Below, piece after piece: positions 6,303 to 36,012 of a stretch of 41,274 nucleotides of DNA (the first letter of the stretch is position 1; the number at the start of each line of letters is the position of its first letter). Source of the DNA: Dehalococcoidales bacterium. Its GTDB lineage: Bacteria > Chloroflexota > Dehalococcoidia > Dehalococcoidales > CSSed11-197. The stretch is taken from positions 1 to 41,274 of the forward strand of contig JAQUNW010000010.1 in the NCBI GenBank assembly GCA_028717385.1, read 5' to 3'. Under the pieces are notes generated by a model. It was given only the letters and a program-made list of their open reading frames with translations, ran no database searches and was not told the DNA's origin. Made by a program: the position numbers and the translations under genes.

Positions 6303-6333
6303 TACTAATAATATAGCCTTTATATTATTAGTA
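6303..6333. repeat. 13-bp perfect inverted repeat, AT-rich, 5-nt loop
   Basis: TACTAATAATATA (6303-6315) is followed by loop GCCTT (6316-6320) and the exact reverse complement (6321-6333). It lies 20 nt after the trkA stop and 40 nt before the comEA start. There is no following T-run, so a classical rho-independent terminator is doubtful. An operator or mRNA-end hairpin is equally possible. Confidence 0.6.
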
Positions 6334-19387: not shown

Positions 19388-19417
19388 TTGACGGCTCTGT
19401 ATACCCTGTGATATTAT
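19388..19417 (+). promoter_or_regulatory. hisH-glt-hisF operon promoter
   Basis: TTGACG (19388-19393) and TATTAT (19412-19417) are separated by 18 bp. The predicted start of transcription (about 19424) falls inside the adjacent 34-bp palindrome, so the operator would begin at the -10 box. The hisH ATG is 47 nt from the predicted start. Confidence 0.6.
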
Positions 19418-19449
19418 AAAAATACGGTAAACGTTTACCGTATTTTTAT
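19416..19449. promoter_or_regulatory. 34-bp perfect palindrome with LacI/GalR-like core (candidate operator)
   Basis: Both 17-nt arms match without a mismatch (19416-19432 and 19433-19449). The centre GTAAACGTTTAC has the AA-CG-TT core typical of LacI/GalR/CcpA-family operators. The arms end in A- and T-runs, so in RNA this could also fold as a hairpin with U-rich tail and act as a terminator for phoU in either direction. The good promoter immediately to its left makes an operator over the hisH start site the better reading. Confidence 0.65.
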
Positions 19450-19470: not shown

Positions 19471-20088
19471 ATGATCGCAGTAATCGATTATGGGGCTGGC
19501 AATATCAAAAGCGTGCTAAACGCTATCAAGCACGTGGGCTTGGAGCCTTTGGTTACCAATAATCCTCAAGAAGTATTAACGGCAGAAAAAGTCGTTTTTC
19601 CCGGCGTTGGCGCTGCAGCCAGTACTATGGCAAGTTTGAGAGTATTAAAGCTGGACAAGGCGATTTATGAATATGTCTCATCCGGAAAGCCTTTCTTGGG
19701 AATATGTATTGGTATGCAGGTTCTATTTGATTACACGGAAGAAAACGGCGGTTGTAATTGTCTGGGTATTATCCCGGGCAGAGTGAAAAAGCTTCCCGCT
19801 GGCCAAAAGATACCGCATATAGGCTGGAATCAGGTCCATCAGGTAAAACCTCACCAGCTGTTTTCCGGCATAGAAGATAACGATAATTTCTATTTCGTTC
19901 ATAGTTATTATGCGCATCCTGGTGATGATTCGCTGGTGCTCGCCAGTACTTTTTATGGTATTGATTTTTGTTCAGCCATTGTCTATGGAAAGCTGGTAGC
20001 GACACAATTCCATCCGGAAAAAAGTGGAAAAAACGGCTTGAAAATATATGAAAATTTTTTGTTTGGTAGCGGAGGAATGAAATACTAG
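19471..20088 (+). CDS. hisH: imidazole glycerol phosphate synthase, glutaminase subunit
   Basis: This 205-residue class I glutamine amidotransferase makes ammonia from glutamine for HisF in histidine synthesis. The catalytic cysteine is in LGICIGMQ (Cys79), and the His and Glu of the triad are in FHPEKSG near residue 185. The N-terminus MIAVIDYGAGN is the standard HisH start, so ATG 19471 is chosen over the in-frame GTG 19462. Its partner hisF lies 5.7 kb downstream in the same apparent operon, separated by glutamate-synthase-like genes. Confidence 0.95.
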   Translation: MIAVIDYGAGNIKSVLNAIKHVGLEPLVTNNPQEVLTAEKVVFPGVGAAASTMASLRVLKLDKAIYEYVSSGKPFLGICIGMQVLFDYTEENGGCNCLGIIPGRVKKLPAGQKIPHIGWNQVHQVKPHQLFSGIEDNDNFYFVHSYYAHPGDDSLVLASTFYGIDFCSAIVYGKLVATQFHPEKSGKNGLKIYENFLFGSGGMKY

Positions 20089-20206: not shown

Positions 20207-21619
20207 ATGCCTGAAAAGTATCATATAAATATAAACGAAACACCAGCCCGGTTTCCGCTGGTAAGCAAATACGCTATCGTAGAAACCAGGGAAAAATGCA
20301 CTGGTTCCTGTCGCAAATGCGTCAGAAAAAACTGCGCATTTGGGGTATTTAAACTCAATTCCCATAATATGCAAAAGGCGAAAGAGCGGCAATACCTGTA
20401 TGGCTGCGAGGGTTGTTTCAGGTGTGTACAGGAATGCCCTGGTGGTGTTTTTTCCCGTGTGAAAAATCCGGATTGGGATAATCTGGGTGGTGGTTACTGG
20501 ACTCCGGATATAATTCACCAGACTTGGAAGCAGGCTGAAAATGGCAGGGTTCCTGTTTCTGGAGCGGGGTATCGCGGTAAATTTGCTGCCTGTGGATTCG
20601 ATTCTATTTGGACTGATATGAGTGAAATTGTTCGTCCGACGCGGGACGGAATTCACGGCAGAGAGTACATAAACACCTCGGTTGATATTAACCGCAGGCC
20701 TCACCACTTGTCGTTTTCTCAGGATGGCAAGCTGGACAGGAGCTATACCACTGTGGTTGAAATTCCTATCCCTCTGTTATTTGAAGTTCCAAAATTTGGA
20801 ATTATCAATCGCAGAGTTCTAAATGCTATGGTTTCTGCAGCTTCTGAGTTGGAAACACTTATGTTTCTACGTCCGGAGGAATATAGTGATGACCTTGAGC
20901 CTTTAGCATCCAGTATTGTTCCACGCCTGAAGGCAAGCAATCAGGTTCAGTTTAACAACTTAATAAAAAAATGTCGGATAGTAGAAATTGACTACTGCGA
21001 AAATATTTTACAAATCATAATAGCGGCGAAAACCATCAATCCAGATGTGTTAATAAGTGTCGGCATTGAGCTTGATGGTAAAGCGGTTGAGCGTGCTATT
21101 GAAACGTCGGAGCTTGATGAAGTGGACTTGCTTCACTTCTATGCTGACGCTAACGGTAATGGGCTTGGCTCCAATCAGCCGCGGTTTTTGAGCTCCTTGA
21201 TTCAGGAAATGCATTCGGCGCTCGTCGAAAGAGGATTGCGTTTTCGTACCAACCTGGTTTTTTCCGGGGGAATTGCACTGGCGGAGCACCTTGCCAAGGC
21301 GATTATTTATGGAGCTGATGCGTTAGCGATTTCTACTCCGTTGTTGTTGGCACTTGAATGCCACATGTGCTATCGATGTCTCTCCGGAGAATCTTGCCCG
21401 GTATCCATGGAAGAAATCCCGGAAAACTGGGGCCGTCAGCGGATACTAAACCTGGCGGGGGCATGGCGTGACCAGCTTATAGAGGTGATGGGGGCAATGG
21501 GGATAAGAGAAGCGCGGCGTTTAAGGGGGGATATAGGGCGCTCAATGTGTTTTGAGAACCTTGAAAAAGAGTGTTTTGGGCCAATTTTTGGCAAGAGTGT
21601 GGCGAAAGGTTCGGTTTAA
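20207..21619 (+). CDS. divergent glutamate synthase domain 2 (GltB2-like) paralogue with ferredoxin-type N-terminus
   Basis: This 470-residue protein has an N-terminal cysteine-rich region, CTGSCRKCVRKNC and CEGCFRCVQECP (about 31-81), likely [4Fe-4S]-binding. A glutamate-synthase FMN-type barrel follows. The barrel is degenerate. The SFG motif, the KQGAKPG loop and the GGTGA motif of active GltS are missing. The last is replaced by ADANGNGLGSNQPR. The C-terminal cluster CHMCYRCLSGESCP is kept and has four cysteines rather than the usual three. It probably partners the intact paralogue next door as a structural or electron-carrying subunit, which is an inference. An independent enzymatic role is possible. 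Confidence 0.75.
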   Translation: MPEKYHININETPARFPLVSKYAIVETREKCTGSCRKCVRKNCAFGVFKLNSHNMQKAKERQYLYGCEGCFRCVQECPGGVFSRVKNPDWDNLGGGYWTPDIIHQTWKQAENGRVPVSGAGYRGKFAACGFDSIWTDMSEIVRPTRDGIHGREYINTSVDINRRPHHLSFSQDGKLDRSYTTVVEIPIPLLFEVPKFGIINRRVLNAMVSAASELETLMFLRPEEYSDDLEPLASSIVPRLKASNQVQFNNLIKKCRIVEIDYCENILQIIIAAKTINPDVLISVGIELDGKAVERAIETSELDEVDLLHFYADANGNGLGSNQPRFLSSLIQEMHSALVERGLRFRTNLVFSGGIALAEHLAKAIIYGADALAISTPLLLALECHMCYRCLSGESCPVSMEEIPENWGRQRILNLAGAWRDQLIEVMGAMGIREARRLRGDIGRSMCFENLEKECFGPIFGKSVAKGSV

Positions 21620-21620
21620 A

Positions 21621-23156
21621 ATGGAAACGAGAAAAGAAGTGGTAGAGTTTCCCCTGGCTAAACTGGCGCCTTCTCGTTACCATAATACAATCAGTCAATA
21701 CATTATCAAACGGAGCGCAAGCTGTAATGAATGTGGATTATGTGCAAGGCTTTGCCCTCAAGGTGTTCACTCTTCCGGCAATGTGTATTCTGGCGCCCTG
21801 AAACCGTATATGGATCGTTGTACAGGATTTGAATGTGCCGCAAATGAATACTATTGCATTGATCGTTGCCCGCAGAAGGCATTGTCAATACAGCTAAATC
21901 CATTGCTCGAAACACTGGGCGACTACCGCTGGACAGCAGAGATGCTGTTGGGGCACTGGGTTATGGCAGAAACTGGAGACTTGCCGGTCACAAAGCTTGA
22001 ATACAGCACGGGTAAATCCAATGGGGGATTTGACCGCATACGTTTTAAGACACCCAGGCAAAATGATTATCTGCACATTCCCGATAAAGAGATAGATACC
22101 AGCGTAAAGCTGAATCGCAGAAATGATGGGCGCCTGCCACTTTCGATAAACATTCCGGTTTACGGGGGTGGTATGTCATTTGGTTCAACGGCTCTTCCGG
22201 TGTTAATAGGGCGTGCGCGAGCTGCCAAAAAGCTGGGTACTCTTACCTGCACCGGTGAAGGGGGCTACCATGATAAAATTCTGCCCTATGCCGGTAATGT
22301 AATTACCCAGGTGGCTACCGGACTCTTCGGTGTCAGAGAAGAAACAATCAGACGTGCTCCAATGGTTGAGTTTAAATATGCCCAAGGAGCCAAGCCCGGT
22401 CTTGGCGGGCACTTATTAGGCGACAAGGTTACCGCTGAAGTGGCTGCAATACGTCAAACGGTAATCGGCAATGCACTCTTCTCTCCCTTTCCGTTCCATA
22501 GCGTTTATTCAGTAGAAGATCACAAGAAACAGGTGGACTGGGTAAAACAAGTAAATATTGAAGGACTGATATCCGTGAAAGTATCCACCCCTGTTGACTG
22601 CGATATGGTTGCAGTTGGCATCTATCATGCCGGAGCCCACGTGATTCATTTCGATGGCAGCTACGGTGGTACTGGCGCTGCACCGGATATAGCTAAAAAG
22701 AATATTGCCATGCCGATCGAATACGCCATTCCCAGGGTGCACCGATTTCTTGTATCCGAGGGCATTCGGGATCAGATAACTCTGATCGCGAGCGGGGGAA
22801 TACGCTCTGCCATGGATGTCGCTAAGGCGATTGCACTTGGCGCCGATGGTGTGGTTATCGGTACTGCGGAATTGGTTGCCGTGGAATGCGTGCGTTGCGG
22901 CCATTGCGAGAGTGGGCGGGGGTGCCCCAGAGGTATCGCCACTACCGATTCGGAACTTGGGCAGGTAATTAGCGAGGAATGGGCAGAGCGGCGCATCGTT
23001 AACATGTATTTAGCCTGGCGCAAGCAATGGTGTGAACTTTTACGACAATACCGAATGCGCAGCATAAAGGAGTTGGTCGGCCGCAGCGATCTGCTGGTGC
23101 ACCTGGATTATCTGGAAGAACAAGAAAGAAATAATTATCTATCTTACGGTGGCTAA
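21621..23156 (+). CDS. glutamate synthase domain 2 (FMN/Fe-S catalytic subunit, archaeal type)
   Basis: This protein has 511 residues from ATG 21621. An in-frame TTG at 21552 would overlap the previous gene. The N-terminus has ferredoxin-type motifs CNECGLCARLCP and later CIDRCP. The FMN barrel carries GGGMSFGSTALPV, QGAKPGLGG, FPFHSVYSVED, SYGGTGAAPDI and ASGGIRSAMDVAKAIALGAD. The cluster motif CVRCGHCESGRGCP has four cysteines, whereas the canonical GltS 3Fe-4S site has three. It catalyses reductive transfer of ammonia to 2-oxoglutarate, with the glutaminase in the next gene. No GltD-like NADPH subunit is nearby, so ferredoxin is the likely donor. Confidence 0.88.
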   Translation: METRKEVVEFPLAKLAPSRYHNTISQYIIKRSASCNECGLCARLCPQGVHSSGNVYSGALKPYMDRCTGFECAANEYYCIDRCPQKALSIQLNPLLETLGDYRWTAEMLLGHWVMAETGDLPVTKLEYSTGKSNGGFDRIRFKTPRQNDYLHIPDKEIDTSVKLNRRNDGRLPLSINIPVYGGGMSFGSTALPVLIGRARAAKKLGTLTCTGEGGYHDKILPYAGNVITQVATGLFGVREETIRRAPMVEFKYAQGAKPGLGGHLLGDKVTAEVAAIRQTVIGNALFSPFPFHSVYSVEDHKKQVDWVKQVNIEGLISVKVSTPVDCDMVAVGIYHAGAHVIHFDGSYGGTGAAPDIAKKNIAMPIEYAIPRVHRFLVSEGIRDQITLIASGGIRSAMDVAKAIALGADGVVIGTAELVAVECVRCGHCESGRGCPRGIATTDSELGQVISEEWAERRIVNMYLAWRKQWCELLRQYRMRSIKELVGRSDLLVHLDYLEEQERNNYLSYGG

Positions 23157-23158
23157 CT

Positions 23159-25807
23159 GTGAATCGAAAAGAATTGGTATATAGAATAATTGGATCACGC
23201 AGGAATCTTCCCAGCCCTGGCGGTTCAACATGCAAAGCTGCCGAAGAGGGTGGTTGTGGTGTAACCGGGTTCATTTCATCAGTACCAGTAAGGGGAAAAC
23301 ATATCATTACTCCGTCTGTGCAGATGCATAACCGGGGGAACGGCAAGGGTGGTGGCATTGCAGCTATCGGTCTTTCAGCCGAGGACATTGGTGTTTCTCA
23401 GTATACGCTTGAGACTTGCTACCTTTTGCAGATAGCCCTTCTTGATGAGAGTATCAGGGAGGAAGTCGAAAAAAAGTTTATTGATCCCTTTTTAGATATT
23501 TTCAGAGCTGAGCGTATTCCTACGCTGAAAGACTTCCGTGAAATTCCTGGCCTCAAATGCCGTCCGCCAGATGTATGGCGCTACCTTGTAAGAGTAAAAC
23601 CAGGAGCGCTGGAGCACTTTATAGTGCAAAACCAACTTCAAGCACTGGAAACCGGTAAAGCTGAAGATGAGTTTGTGTACCAGAATTCTTATCGTATCAA
23701 CCACTGTTTTTATTCTTCTGGCGGCCAGCAGCGTGCCTTTGTACTTTCTCATGGTCACAATCTGATGGTGCTAAAAGTAGTCGGATATGCTGAGCAGGTA
23801 GCTCAGTATTATTGTCTGAATGACTTTCGGGCTTATGGTTGGATAGCCCATCAGCGCTATCCAACCAGGGGGAAGATATGGCATCCGGGCGGAGCACATC
23901 CGTTTACCGGTTTGGATGAGGCGCTGGTGCATAACGGGGATTTTGCTAACTATTATTCAGTCAGTGAATATTTACATCAGCATAATATTTACCCCCAGTT
24001 TTTCACCGATACCGAAGTATCGGCTCTAATGTTTGATTTGCTGAACCGCACTTTCGAATACCCGCTTGAGTACATAATCGAAGCTATAGCCCCAACGGGT
24101 GAATATGACTTTAATCTTCTCCCGGTTGAAAAACAGGGCATATATCGGCAGATACAATCAGCCCATATTCATTCCAGCCCGGATGGTCCCTGGTTTTTTA
24201 TTATCGCCAGGAATGATACCCGGCAAAAAAAGTTGCAGCTTGTTGGGATTACTGATACGTCCATGCTGCGCCCACAGGTTTTTGCCTTGCAGGAAGGCGA
24301 CGTGCAGATTGGTCTTATAGGCTCTGAAAAACAGGCGATTGATGCAACTCTGGAGAGTATTGCAGCCGAAGATAAACGTTTTTGCCCGGTTGCAGATGAG
24401 TACTGGAACTGCCGGGGTGGTAGTGCAAGTGATGGCGGAGCGTTCATCTTTTCAATAGAAGATGACAGCACCGGGGGTAAAAGGCTTGTTTGTTCCAATA
24501 AATTTGGAGAAGCAGTAAAAACAGCTCCGGATCAATATCATTATCAAGGTAATATGGGCGGCACCAGCCTCCATGATGAAGAAGTTATTAACGAAGTTGA
24601 GAAATGCTTCATGGGTGGAGAGCGTGAGCAGCTCAAACTGTATTATCGTGAGCATCTGCCAGGCTGGAACTATGCATCTCTGATCGCTTTTTGCTCCAGC
24701 ATAGTTGAATGCTCAAAAAACGGTGATAGGCAAAAACAGTTAGCTATAGAAATCCTTAGCTGGCTAAATGATAAACCTTTAAGTACCGGCAACAAGAAGA
24801 GAAGCTCGGTTCTCCAGATAGTCAGAAATTATTTGGTAGCCGTATTTAATAATACACTGTTGGTTGGTAATCAGGGAAAGAGTCGCTACCGGTTGATAAA
24901 CTATGCCAAGCGCCAGACTCTTGCCAAGCCCAGCAATGAAAACCAGGTCTTGCTTCTGGATGCACAAGGTTTTCCTCCCGAAGGGGAAGAATGTGATGCT
25001 CGGCTATTGGCTGAAGCCAGTAGATTAGGCTGGAAAAACTTTATCTGCTTTAATTATTCCGGCCAAAGGTTTTGCGGTTGTGGTATATCAAATGGTTTGG
25101 TAAAGGCTAGAATCGATGTTTATGGCAGCCCGGGTGATTATCTTGCTTCTGGGATAAATGGAGTGCAAATATACGTACATAATGATGGCCAGGATCAAAT
25201 CGGGCAGATAATGATGAGTGGAAAACTGGTAGTGTATGGAGACGTAGGACAGACTTTTATGTATGGTGCCAAAGGCGGGGAGGCGTATGTAATGGGCAAT
25301 GCCGCCGGCAGGCCTCTGATTAATGCGGTCGGAAACCCCAGGGTGGTAATCAACGGCACCTGCCTTGATTACCTGGCAGAATCATTTATGGCTGGAAATC
25401 CACTTAAAGGAGGCGGTTTTGTAATTGTGAACGGAGTAGAATACAATGCCGATGGTCAGGTTCAAAGCCAGACCTCTCCGTATCCTGGCTCTAATCTTTT
25501 TTCGTTGGCTTCCGGTGGTGCTATATATATCAGGGATCCGCATCGAAAAGTTGTACCCGAACAGTTAAATGGGGGAGAGCTTGTGGAGCTTTCTTCTGAT
25601 GATTGGGAACTTATAAAACCTTATCTTGAGGAAAATGAAAAGCTGTTTGGTATTTCCGTTGAAAATGACCTGCTTTCTGTGAATGGCGAGAGACGTCAAT
25701 ATTACCAGGTATACCGCAAGGTTAAGGCCATTGAATTGGGCGTTCTTCACCGGGTTGAAATGGATCGGGAAGATAGTTATCAAGAAGAGATAAAACAATC
25801 ATGCTAA
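23159..25807 (+). CDS. glutamate synthase glutaminase (class II) fused to GXGXG domain
   Basis: The product has 882 residues. The N-terminal half is a class II glutamine amidotransferase. Cys33 in [10 protein letters not shown] would be the catalytic N-terminal nucleophile after propeptide cleavage. [19 protein letters not shown] and [10 protein letters not shown] match GltB domain 1. After a linker of about 250 residues comes the GXGXG beta-helix (about 650-790), with repeated glycines in [31 protein letters not shown] and [14 protein letters not shown], the equivalent of GltB domain 3. Together with the preceding gene it makes up the standard three GltB domains, but in the order 2 then 1+3. 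GTG start; its stop overlaps the hisF start. Confidence 0.88.
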
Positions 25808-26562
25808 GCAGGAGAATAATACCCTGTCTGGACGTGCAGGCTGGACGTGTTGTAAAAGGTACTAGTTTTTTAGGGTTGAGAGAAGCTGGAGATCCGGTAG
25901 AACTGGCCACCCGGTATTATCGGGAAGGCGCGGATGAGCTGGTTTTTCTGGACATTTCAGCAACTTCGGAAGGCCGTGATACCATGGAAGATGTAGTTGA
26001 AATGGTGGCCGAGAAAGTTTTTATACCGCTCACTGTTGGTGGAGGTATACGAAATATTTCCGATATTCGGCGTATGTTGGGTGCAGGAGCAGACAAAGTC
26101 TCGGTTAATTCGGCTGCAGTCAAACACCCCGAACTTATCAGCGAAGGAGCCGACAAGTTTGGAAGCCAGTGTATTGTGATTGCCATTGATGCACAGCGCC
26201 GGGAAGGTAAGGGTGGCTGGGAAGTGTATATAAACAGTGGTAGTGAACCCACTGGTATTGATGCGTTGGAATGGGCAGTCAAAGCTACTGAGCTGGGCGC
26301 CGGAGAAGTATTGCTTACCAGTATGGATACTGATGGCCATCGCACTGGATATGATATTGAGCTCACCCGGGCTGTTTCAGAAAGTGTAAGCGTTCCGGTC
26401 ATTGCCAGCGGGGGTGCCGGTTCCCCGGAAGACCTCTTTATGGCATTGAAAGAAGGGAAAGCAGATGCGGTATTGGCGGCCAGCATTTTCCATTATCGCC
26501 AGTTTTCGATTGCTGATGTAAAAGCTTACCTTTTTCATAAAGGTATACCGGTTAGGTTATAA
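25801..26562 (+). CDS. hisF: imidazole glycerol phosphate synthase, cyclase subunit
   Basis: This 253-residue TIM-barrel cyclase uses ammonia from HisH to make IGP and AICAR from PRFAR. Catalytic Asp11 (IIPCLDV) and Asp130 (VIAIDAQR) are both present, as are the phosphate-binding GGGI and ASGGAG loops. The sequence is canonical. Its ATG at 25801 lies within the end of the glutaminase gene (7-nt overlap), which joins it firmly to the glt operon. Confidence 0.97.
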
Positions 26563-26618: not shown

Positions 26619-27281
26619 ATGGCTAAAATATTAATAGTTTCCGATAAAACTGAAGCCGGGGAACTTTACCGTTTTCTCAATGGGAGGGGTCTATCCTCCC
26701 ATGTTTTACCTGGAGATGAAGATATCCTGCAGGGTGTCAGTGATAATGGCGGCAGTCTGGTATTAATCCTCCTATCGAATTATACCCTTGCCAATAATAT
26801 CGCCCGCATTATTAAACAGGAGAAGCGACTTCCCGTGCTCATGTTGCTCCAGCCGGACAAGATCGGCCAGGCAATACTGCCGATGGAAGCAGATGATTTT
26901 GTGTTGTACCCAGGGCAGGAAGATGAGCTCTGCCTGCGTATCGAACGTCTGTTGCCAGGCAACGGGACTAAAATGGCGGAAGAATGTATCCGCTGCGGGG
27001 ATCTGGTTATCGATCTTGCCAGTTGTGAAGTTTCGCTCAAAGGGGAGGTTCTCGACCTGACTTTCCGGGAATATGAGCTGCTTAAATTTCTGGCGTTGAA
27101 CCGAGGGAGGACTTTCACTCGGGAAGCACTTCTTAACCGCGTATGGGGTTATGATTATTTTGGAGGGGACAGAACTGTTGACGTGCATATCCGCCGCCTG
27201 AGAACCAAAACCGGAGATCTTGATAATCCCTACATAGAAACGGTAAGAAATATCGGTTACCGCTTTCGTAAAAAAGACTAG
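26619..27281 (+). CDS. atypical OmpR-family transcriptional regulator (receiver lacks phospho-site)
   Basis: This 220-residue protein has a C-terminal winged-helix domain (about 125-218) that is a clear OmpR/PhoB type: LDLTFREYELLKFLALNRGR, WGYDYFGGDRTVDVHIRRLR and GYRFRKKD. The N-terminal receiver-like domain has lost the acceptor aspartate, where LVLILLSNYTL stands in for the usual DLVLLD-type strand. It has also lost the conserved lysine, with DDFVLYPG in place of DDYxxKPF. It therefore probably senses something other than phosphorylation, in the manner of actinobacterial GlnR-type orphans. No kinase is adjacent. It lies 56 nt after hisF, and the target is unknown. Confidence 0.85.
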   Translation: MAKILIVSDKTEAGELYRFLNGRGLSSHVLPGDEDILQGVSDNGGSLVLILLSNYTLANNIARIIKQEKRLPVLMLLQPDKIGQAILPMEADDFVLYPGQEDELCLRIERLLPGNGTKMAEECIRCGDLVIDLASCEVSLKGEVLDLTFREYELLKFLALNRGRTFTREALLNRVWGYDYFGGDRTVDVHIRRLRTKTGDLDNPYIETVRNIGYRFRKKD

Positions 27282-33728: not shown

Positions 33729-34319
33729 ATGATAAACGCGGGTGATACAGCCTGGGTACTTATTTCAGCTGCTATGGTAATGTTTATGACCCCGGGCCTT
33801 GCTCTGTTTTATGGTGGTATGGTCAGGAGGAAAAATTTGCTCTCAACCATCATGATGAGCTTTGCATGCATTGGTCTTGTCACCGTACTATGGATGACGT
33901 ATGGTTACTCCATAGGATTTGCTCCCGGTATAGCCGGAGGTCTTGTCGGGAACCTGGAATACCTTGGGCTCAAGGGTGTAGGCCAGGAGCCTTTGGCAGT
34001 TTATGCTGCAACTGTTCCACACCTTGCCTTTATGACATTCCAGGGCATGTTTGCAGTAATAGCACTGGCTACCGGCATTTTTGCCAGCGCAGCGATAAAC
34101 CCGACTGGAGCAGACGGGCTAGTAAATGGCGGGGGGATGCAGGTAGTTATCCAGATGATCAGCGTTGTTGCCGTAGCTGCGTTTGCTTTCATTGGAAGTA
34201 TTGTGATTGGAAAAGTAGTTAATGCTACAGTTGGCTTAAGGGTAAAACCGGTAGAGGAGACTATAGGACTTGACCTTTCCCAGCATGCCGAAAGTGTTTA
34301 TGGAGGTAGCATGCGATGA
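33729..34319 (+). CDS. internally deleted AmtB-like ammonium transporter (196 residues)
   Basis: Full AmtB proteins have about 400 residues and 11 helices. This one keeps the N-terminal part through TFQGMFAVI (residues 1-111: helices 1, 2 and the start of 3). It then jumps directly to ALATGIFASAAINPTGADGL (112 onward), which matches the end of helix 10. Helix 11 and the C-terminal PII-binding tail (GLDLSQHAESVYGG) follow. Roughly 200 residues are missing, including both pore histidines. The frame is intact, the SD is strong and the stop overlaps glnB (ATGA). It is either a functional mini-protein, a recent in-frame deletion, or an assembly collapse. Ammonium transport by the canonical mechanism is not expected. 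Confidence 0.8.
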   Translation: MINAGDTAWVLISAAMVMFMTPGLALFYGGMVRRKNLLSTIMMSFACIGLVTVLWMTYGYSIGFAPGIAGGLVGNLEYLGLKGVGQEPLAVYAATVPHLAFMTFQGMFAVIALATGIFASAAINPTGADGLVNGGGMQVVIQMISVVAVAAFAFIGSIVIGKVVNATVGLRVKPVEETIGLDLSQHAESVYGGSMR

Positions 34320-34654
34320 AAAAGGTAGAAGCGATTATTCGTGAAGAAAGGTTAAAAGCGGTGATCGAAGGCCTGGAGGAAAACGGTTATTTTGGGCTTA
34401 CAGTAACAGAAGTTAGCGGCCGGGGACGCCAGAAAGGGCTGACCTTGCAGGGAAGATCTGCCCAGTACCAGGTTGACTTGATACCCAAGATTAAAATTGA
34501 GGTGGTAGTTATGGATGGAGATGTTCCCTTGATAGTCAATACGATATCCCGGATTGCTCGTACAGGAGACATCGGAGACGGTAAAATATTTATAATCCCA
34601 GTAGAAGATGCGATAAGGATCCGTACCGGAGAAGTTGGCGAAGACACACTTTAA
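34316..34654 (+). CDS. glnB: nitrogen regulatory protein PII
   Basis: This 112-residue PII protein binds ATP/ADP and 2-oxoglutarate and regulates AmtB and nitrogen enzymes. It has the GRGRQKG start of the T-loop, Tyr51 (the uridylylation position) retained, Gly46 where Tyr is common, and the C-terminal signatures RTGDIGDGKIFIIPVEDAIRIRTGE. Linkage to amtB and glnA is the GlnK arrangement. The ATG overlaps the amtB stop by 4 nt, so the two are translationally coupled even though amtB is shortened. Confidence 0.95.
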   Translation: MKKVEAIIREERLKAVIEGLEENGYFGLTVTEVSGRGRQKGLTLQGRSAQYQVDLIPKIKIEVVVMDGDVPLIVNTISRIARTGDIGDGKIFIIPVEDAIRIRTGEVGEDTL

Positions 34655-34674
34655 ATAAAATTAGGAGGAAAAAA

Positions 34675-36012
34675 TTGGCCGACAAAAGAGAAAGCAAAGA
34701 GTATGTATTAAAAATGGCAAAGGAGCATGATGTTAAGTTTATCAGGCTCTGGTTTACTGATGTACTTGGAATGTTGAAAAGTTTTGCCATAACGGTTGAA
34801 GAGCTTGAGACAGCGCTTGAGGAGGGGATGGGGTTTGATGGTTCGTCTATCGAAGGATTTGCCAGGATTGACGAAAGCGATATGATAGCCCTCCCGGACC
34901 CCGATACGTTCCGGATGCTGCCATGGCGGCCACGAGAGCATCAAGCAGTAGCGCGTATATTTTGTGATATCGTAAGACCGGAGGGAACACCTTTTGAAGG
35001 TGATCCCAGGTATGTACTAAAAAGGATCTTGAAACGAGCTGCTGATATGGGATACACGTTCTATGTAGGTCCTGAATTGGAGTATTTTTACTTCAAGGAT
35101 AATAAAAGTACCGAGGTTCTGGATGCTGGTGGTTACTTCGATATGATACCGCTGGATATGGCTACCGATCTTAGGCGGGAATCAGTCCTATCTCTTGAGA
35201 AAATGGGGATAGCAGTAGAATATTCTCACCATGAAGTGGCGCCTTCACAGCATGAAATTGACGTGCGTTATACCGATGCCCTTACTATGGCAGATAACGT
35301 AATGACCTATCGTTTGGTAGTAAAGCAGATTGCCCTGAACGCGGGTGTTTATGCAACTTTTATGCCTAAACCGCTTTTTGGGGAAAATGGTAGCGGTATG
35401 CATGTTCACCAGTCTCTGTTTAAAGGTGATAGTAACGCGTTTTTTGACAGAAGTGACAGCTATAACCTTTCGCAGACTGCAAAATACTATATTGCCGGGC
35501 TTTTAAAACATGCACCCGAGTTTACCTCAATAACCAACCAGTGGATTAATTCATATAAAAGACTGGTACCAGGTTATGAGGCGCCTGTATATCTTTCTTG
35601 GGCAAGGCGCAACCGTTCGGATATGATTCGAGTACCGGAATACAAGCCTGGCAGAGAAAAAGCCACACGGGCGGAACTGCGCAGTCCTGACGCGGCATGT
35701 AACCCTTACCTTGCATTTGCAGTCATGCTGGCTGCGGGGTTGGAGGGGATTGAAAAGAAATATGAACTACCGGCACCAATCGAAAGTAATGTTTTTGATA
35801 TGACTGATGCAGAAAGAACAGAAAGGGGCATCGGCACTTTACCTTCCAGCCTCAGCGAAGCTGTTAAGTTAACTGAAAAAAGCCAACTCGTGCGTGATAC
35901 TCTGGGTGAACATTGCTTTAATGCATTTTTAGAGAATAAAAAACTTGAGTGGGATAAGTACCGCATACAGGTTACCGAATATGAGCTAAAGCGTTACCTT
36001 CCTATACTATAA
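34675..36012 (+). CDS. glnA: glutamine synthetase type I (alpha class)
   Basis: This 445-residue ATP-dependent enzyme makes glutamine from glutamate and ammonia. Visible motifs are GFDGSSIEGFA (Asp-50 loop), GPELEYFYF, NGSGMHVHQS, and NRSDMIRVPEY/KATRAELRSPDAACNPYLAF. The C-terminal region reads KYELPAPIESNVFDMTDAER like the Bacillus GSI-alpha class. It lacks the NLYDLPPE adenylylation tyrosine, so control by adenylylation is not expected. The TTG start at 34675 follows TAGGAGG. It is coupled with glnB (20 nt). Confidence 0.97.
   Translation: MADKRESKEYVLKMAKEHDVKFIRLWFTDVLGMLKSFAITVEELETALEEGMGFDGSSIEGFARIDESDMIALPDPDTFRMLPWRPREHQAVARIFCDIVRPEGTPFEGDPRYVLKRILKRAADMGYTFYVGPELEYFYFKDNKSTEVLDAGGYFDMIPLDMATDLRRESVLSLEKMGIAVEYSHHEVAPSQHEIDVRYTDALTMADNVMTYRLVVKQIALNAGVYATFMPKPLFGENGSGMHVHQSLFKGDSNAFFDRSDSYNLSQTAKYYIAGLLKHAPEFTSITNQWINSYKRLVPGYEAPVYLSWARRNRSDMIRVPEYKPGREKATRAELRSPDAACNPYLAFAVMLAAGLEGIEKKYELPAPIESNVFDMTDAERTERGIGTLPSSLSEAVKLTEKSQLVRDTLGEHCFNAFLENKKLEWDKYRIQVTEYELKRYLPIL

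Follow-up and report, generated by a model that had tools for sequence, protein, structure and literature searches.

A perfect palindrome at the hisH promoter of a Dehalococcoidales bacterium as a predicted operator of the nitrogen repressor NrpR

What is the role of a 34-bp perfect palindrome that stands between a promoter and hisH in a bacterium of the order Dehalococcoidales? The palindrome lies in a contig of 41,274 nt, analyzed at full length and referred to here as the window, from a genome of 1.37 Mb in 71 contigs that is 96% complete (G000). The hisH of the window has its nearest named relatives among Dehalococcoidales MAGs of the Chloroflexota. Its two 17-nt arms (19416–19432 and 19433–19449) are 100% complementary and have no spacer, and no other perfect inverted repeat with a loop of 0–10 nt in the 41 kb is as long; the runner-up (6303–6333) has 13-nt arms and a 5-nt loop. 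Across 40 shuffles of the window that preserved dinucleotides, the longest arm without a spacer measured 6–10 nt, compared with the 17 nt observed. A chance origin was ruled out by these shuffles and by conservation of the palindrome in the genus. The original prediction had described this mismatch-free repeat, a TTGACG-18-TATTAT promoter running into it, and hisH, glutamate-synthase-like genes and hisF behind it, all of which are borne out by the scans and by family matches (Table 1). The promoter was recovered by pattern scan with 10/12 matches; the scan alone is weak (six promoter-like sites in the window versus 3.4, sd 1.9, expected from shuffles), but promoter and palindrome are conserved together in three further genomes of the genus. 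The -10 box shares its end with the first two bases of the palindrome, and thus the transcription start expected from promoter spacing (~19424) would fall inside the palindrome. The palindrome ends 22 nt ahead of hisH.

Table 1. Positions of the promoter, palindrome, predicted operator and associated genes (window coordinates unless a locus is named).
Feature	Location	Strand	Basis or remark
-35 box TTGACG, hisH promoter	19388..19393	+	Pattern scan; conserved in G001, G003, G004
-10 box TATTAT	19412..19417	+	Pattern scan; conserved in genus
34-bp perfect palindrome	19416..19449	.	17+17; shuffles reach arms of at most 10
20-bp conserved operator (predicted), TACGGTAAACGTTTACCGTA	19423..19442	.	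Recurs before genes at other promoters, in genus and order
Operator core GGTA-N6-TACC	GGTA 19426–19429, TACC 19436–19439		Equals GGTA-N6-TACC of M. mazei NrpRI
hisH, first gene behind operator	19471..20088	+	TIGR01855 HisH, 234.3 bits vs cut-off 105.4
Ferredoxin/glutamate-synthase-like protein	20207..21619	+	PF01645, partial match
Glutamate synthase FMN domain protein	21552..23156	+	PF01645, E 2.7e-89
GXGXG-domain and amidotransferase-like protein, glutamate synthase type	23159..25807	+	PF01493 above cut-off; PF13522 below
hisF	25801..26562	+	PF00977, E 3.5e-85; HisF name from original prediction and position
OmpR-type regulator, rival candidate for operator	26619..27281	+	PF00486 only
~880-aa PPDK_N protein	L202:3443–6079; L203:1936–4566; L190:8509–11163; L194:1836–4487		

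The arrangement is kept within the genus. In all six genus genomes examined, the site precedes hisH or a ferredoxin gene followed by hisH: G001, G003 and G004 carry phoU, then the TTTTGACG promoter, the palindrome and hisH, and G002 and G005 carry a similar promoter and palindrome ahead of the ferredoxin gene and then hisH. An Rfam scan of the window returned two tRNAs only, with no known RNA family at the palindrome. A reading as an RNA element was prompted by the G002 and G004 copies, in whose 3' arm A has changed to G in a way that would preserve a U·G pair; it was set aside because the sites at L146, L152 and L275 read GGCA...TACC, in which the pair is broken.

The original prediction had also allowed that the palindrome could be a terminator acting in both directions, which would end the transcripts of phoU. 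This copy does form a strong hairpin (15 pairs, -15.8 kcal/mol) with a U-rich stretch behind it. It is also the only plus-strand match of a terminator scan in the interval from phoU to hisH; the scan itself returns four sites versus 1.9 (sd 1.5) expected. However, the conserved 20-mer stands at gene starts behind promoters and not at gene ends, and its sequence is kept across the genus, whereas the stem of a terminator may vary. The 20-bp core also recurs at other promoters, where most copies lack the long A/T tails of the genus hisH site, and the short distance to hisH leaves no room for a promoter behind the palindrome. The portion expected in the hisH transcript folds at only -7.4 kcal/mol, compared with the value above for the full palindrome. 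An intrinsic terminator is thus a very improbable explanation of the site, and a terminator role of this one copy in addition to that of an operator is somewhat less improbable but still doubtful.

A role as an operator on the hisH promoter, as the original prediction had it, is supported by the sequence comparisons that follow; the family to which it had been assigned is not. The core GTAAACGTTTAC is present, and it presumably resembles operators of the LacI/GalR family, which are likewise even palindromes with a central CG. Such a regulator is nevertheless absent from the genome assembly: a profile search with PF00356 had no match there and, over 21 genomes, a single one (G012) that fell below the family cut-off, whereas the same search was positive in 9 of 14 control genomes. 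The earlier remark that no LacI-type regulator is encoded nearby is correct and extends to the whole genome as assembled. We therefore give almost no credence to a LacI/GalR-family operator; NrpR, a nitrogen repressor first described in methanogenic archaea, fits instead.

The distribution of the site across the order points to nitrogen. In the genome that contains the window, the 14-bp core has a single exact occurrence. Across 156 genomes of the order, TACGGTAAACGTTTACCGTA with at most two mismatches was found 12 times, in 9 genomes, against none for the reversed control. All 12 copies stand before genes. Six head hisH or ferredoxin-hisH operons, and one heads gdhA in the window's own genome (G000:C11:16046–16065). 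Others head an operon of an OmpR-type gene, amtB, amtB, glnK and glnA (G094), a PPDK_N gene with a glutamine synthetase gene behind it (G004), and an operon of a PPDK_N-type gene, glutamate synthase, nrpR and gdhA, the first two of which are named by likeness to Pfam-matched relatives (G140). The remaining two, both in G003, head genes without an obvious role in nitrogen metabolism (metF and a lone PPDK_N-type gene). With a relaxed pattern (below), a third site was found in the window's own genome (G000:C27:3906–3925); it is preceded by a TTGACG promoter and lies 428 bp upstream of a glutamine-synthetase-family gene. The same pattern found a site at asnB in G002. The putative targets include the nitrogen-assimilation genes gdhA, glutamine synthetase, amtB-glnK-glnA, glutamate synthase and asnB, with metF and the lone PPDK_N gene as exceptions. 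Operons behind the operator repeatedly begin with the gene of an ~880-aa protein that has a PPDK_N (PEP-synthase-like) domain and an N-terminal half outside any assigned domain (Table 1).

The core of the site has a counterpart in archaea. One study gives the potential NrpRI operator of Methanosarcina mazei as GGTA-N6-TACC (PMC3177094), and the window operator reads GGTA-AACGTT-TACC. The same genome encodes NrpR (G000:C13:1348–2061, PF01995, E 1.4e-82); the gene (L185:1075–2091) specifies a protein with HTH_12 and NRD1_2 domains that matches the solved MJ0159 domain 3nek (phmmer, E 1.8e-20). It lies 38 nt downstream of a second HisA/HisF-type gene (PF00977, L185:263–1036), and no good operator of its own was found. 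NrpR (PF01995) is present in 125 of the 156 genomes of the order, this one included. Because the same site recurs before nitrogen-assimilation genes in many relatives, NrpR is its most likely ligand, and the palindrome is probably an NrpR operator.

The co-occurrence of site and regulator was assessed over the same 156 genomes. A strict pattern (ACGGTA-N6-TACCGT) matched in 16 genomes, compared with 24 for its reversed control, and was too strict and noisy; a weight matrix and a relaxed pattern were substituted for it. Outside the genus, the strict pattern matched in 11 genomes, of which all but G006, G078 and G088 were assessed; seven of the matches fall at nitrogen loci (G094, G106, G110, G111, G113, G140 and G150) and one, in G026, within a gene. 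The relaxed pattern (TACGGYAA-N4-TTRCCGTA, one mismatch allowed) matched at 71 places in 50 genomes, versus 17 places in 17 genomes for the reversed control. It was found in 48 of 125 NrpR-positive and 2 of 31 NrpR-negative genomes (Fisher p 4e-4) and, outside the genus, in 43 of 120 and 1 of 30, respectively (p 2e-4); these p-values are too small, as the genomes are related and not independent, and the reversed control was also commoner in NrpR-positive genomes (16/125 versus 1/31). A relaxed-pattern match was absent from 77 of the 125 NrpR-positive genomes. For 24 new relaxed-pattern loci (L355–L378), 22 lie upstream of genes and two inside genes. Behind the 22 stand ferredoxin-hisH, glutamate synthase, nrpR, gdhA, a PPDK_N-type gene, flpD-metF, or an unnamed gene family that in G009 precedes glutamate synthase; these genes were mostly named by eye from likeness. 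Matches within open reading frames (five in G029, one in G133, L371 in G078 and L372 in G083) were treated as chance.

The weight matrix, built from 11 genus sites, was applied outside the genus. Upstream of nrpR, 70 regions (30 loci and 40 stretches) were reduced to 66 by a gene-call filter (three) and by length (one too short); 18 of the 66 scored at least 8, compared with 0.58% of shuffles (0.4 expected), and eight scored at least 12, compared with 0.08% of shuffles. All 18 sites end 3–50 nt ahead of the start codon. The other 48 regions scored below 8. Several of them have a close variant of the operator, for example ATAGGAAAACGGTTGCCTAT, in the same position behind TTGACA, a pattern suggestive of operator drift from one family to another. 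At the hisH loci, 10 of 22 upstream regions scored at least 8 (null 1.6%, 0.35 expected) and seven at least 12 (null 0.2%); among the ten, the site at L011 (9.7) is doubtful and has no clear promoter. This test took 22 of 30 loci, with the genus itself and two weak matches that are not HisH (L029 and L030) set aside, and covered 900 nt upstream only; at the hisH loci of G036 and G037 a site lies just past that limit. In 20 further regions (257 kb), five matches of at least 10 were found versus 2.05 expected from mononucleotide shuffles, which is weak by itself. Two of the five are inside genes, and the rest stand before ferredoxin-hisH (G013, G028) and amtB-glnK (G105), sites that the amtB and hisH scans had also returned and that are not independent finds. 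As a general target, amtB was rejected, since only G094 and G105 score above 20 among 30 amtB loci; a weaker site (11.4) lies far upstream of amtB at L228. The window also carries a shortened amtB, a P-II gene and glnA (33729–36012), with no good operator site upstream of this amtB. The gene (33729–34319) forms a single frame of 196 aa, in which only positions 1–99 and the final 80 of the 399-position ammonium transporter family are matched; either much of the interior has been deleted in frame or the assembly is at fault.

Could the site belong to another nitrogen regulator? The foremost candidate is the orphan OmpR-type regulator encoded directly behind the hisF operon (Table 1), for which Pfam gave a winged-helix domain match and no receiver-domain match. 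GlnR is an OmpR-type nitrogen regulator of actinomycetes, and we presume that the protein could act in a similar way: an OmpR-type gene of this kind is found beside amtB as well as behind the hisH operon, matches of E 1e-25 or better occur in 20 of 26 genomes searched, many of them beside amtB, and the G094 site heads an operon that begins with such a gene. However, G150 (96% complete) and G102, G106, G005 and G024 (only 68–80% complete) carry NrpR and the site with no OmpR-type match. The site is also found upstream of nrpR itself, in the 18 regions counted above, and its core equals the known NrpR operator, both of which argue against the OmpR-type regulator; to our knowledge, known GlnR sites are unlike the palindrome. 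Control of the site by the OmpR-type protein is thus unlikely. It may be a second nitrogen regulator, as several genomes of the order have its relatives next to amtB.

The position of the site relative to the promoter is consistent with repression by NrpR. Among 32 sites (33 entered, G150 dropped), the distance from the first base of the best -35 box to the operator is 28–43 nt, with a median of 35 nt and 22 sites at 34–37 nt. Boxes with 4/6 matches were accepted, and distance to the -35 box played no part in the choice of sites; the consensus of the 32 is partly circular because the sites were picked by sequence. No good -35 box was found at that distance for nrpR of G013, G054 and G055. With this spacing, the operator would cover the expected transcription start and the bases directly downstream of it, a position from which a repressor would block initiation. 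Binding, repression and release by 2-oxoglutarate are modeled on the archaeal protein (PMC11957540) and on this geometry. When nitrogen is ample, an NrpR dimer would sit on GGTA-N6-TACC over the transcription start and stop RNA polymerase from starting the hisH-glutamate synthase-hisF transcript. Conversely, when nitrogen is short, 2-oxoglutarate would rise, NrpR would be released and the operon would be expressed. In the same genome, this switch would also act on gdhA and probably on the glutamine-synthetase-family gene.

Site and regulator do not coincide in every genome. NrpR is absent from G021 (95% complete, one contig) by family and protein search, and was not found in G001 (84% complete) and G037 (61%), in both of which the site is present. 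A fair site (score 16.6) nevertheless precedes hisF-gdhA in G021 (L252, about 2837–2856). In G085, which has no intact match, a broken piece of nrpR with in-frame stops (L306, G085:C38) lies on the same contig as gdhA. Over the phylum, NrpR was found in 31 of 400 sampled genomes; ten of these belong to other orders of the same class, and four lie outside the class. According to a 2007 report, NrpR homologues were known from three Dehalococcoides and from no other bacteria at that time (PMC1852104). A literature search that covered few subscription papers found no bacterial NrpR operator, regulon or binding study. We consider it reasonably likely that an archaeal-type repressor released by 2-oxoglutarate is the main nitrogen switch of the whole order Dehalococcoidales, Dehalococcoides included, and that it has been rewired onto sigma-70-type promoters, its operator covering the transcription start and, in many lineages, its own gene under its control. 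If true, this would show the fitting of an archaeal repressor to bacterial promoters. With a 20-bp operator, a regulator and a list of targets, nitrogen control in these slow, hard-to-manipulate bacteria becomes testable in vitro.

Among known systems, the potential M. mazei NrpRI operator has the same half sites, the same spacing and the same kind of regulator as predicted here. The two differ in that the promoter here is of the bacterial sigma-70 type, whereas the one in M. mazei is archaeal, in that an outer TAC/GTA is also conserved here, and in their targets, which here are hisH, a split glutamate synthase, gdhA and nrpR. The NrpR operator of Methanococcus maripaludis, GGAAN6TTCC (PMC2723118), follows the same palindrome plan. 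Some nrpR sites of the order read GGAA...TTCC in the same way (for instance, L148), although most sites here have T/C and not A as the central letters of the half-site.
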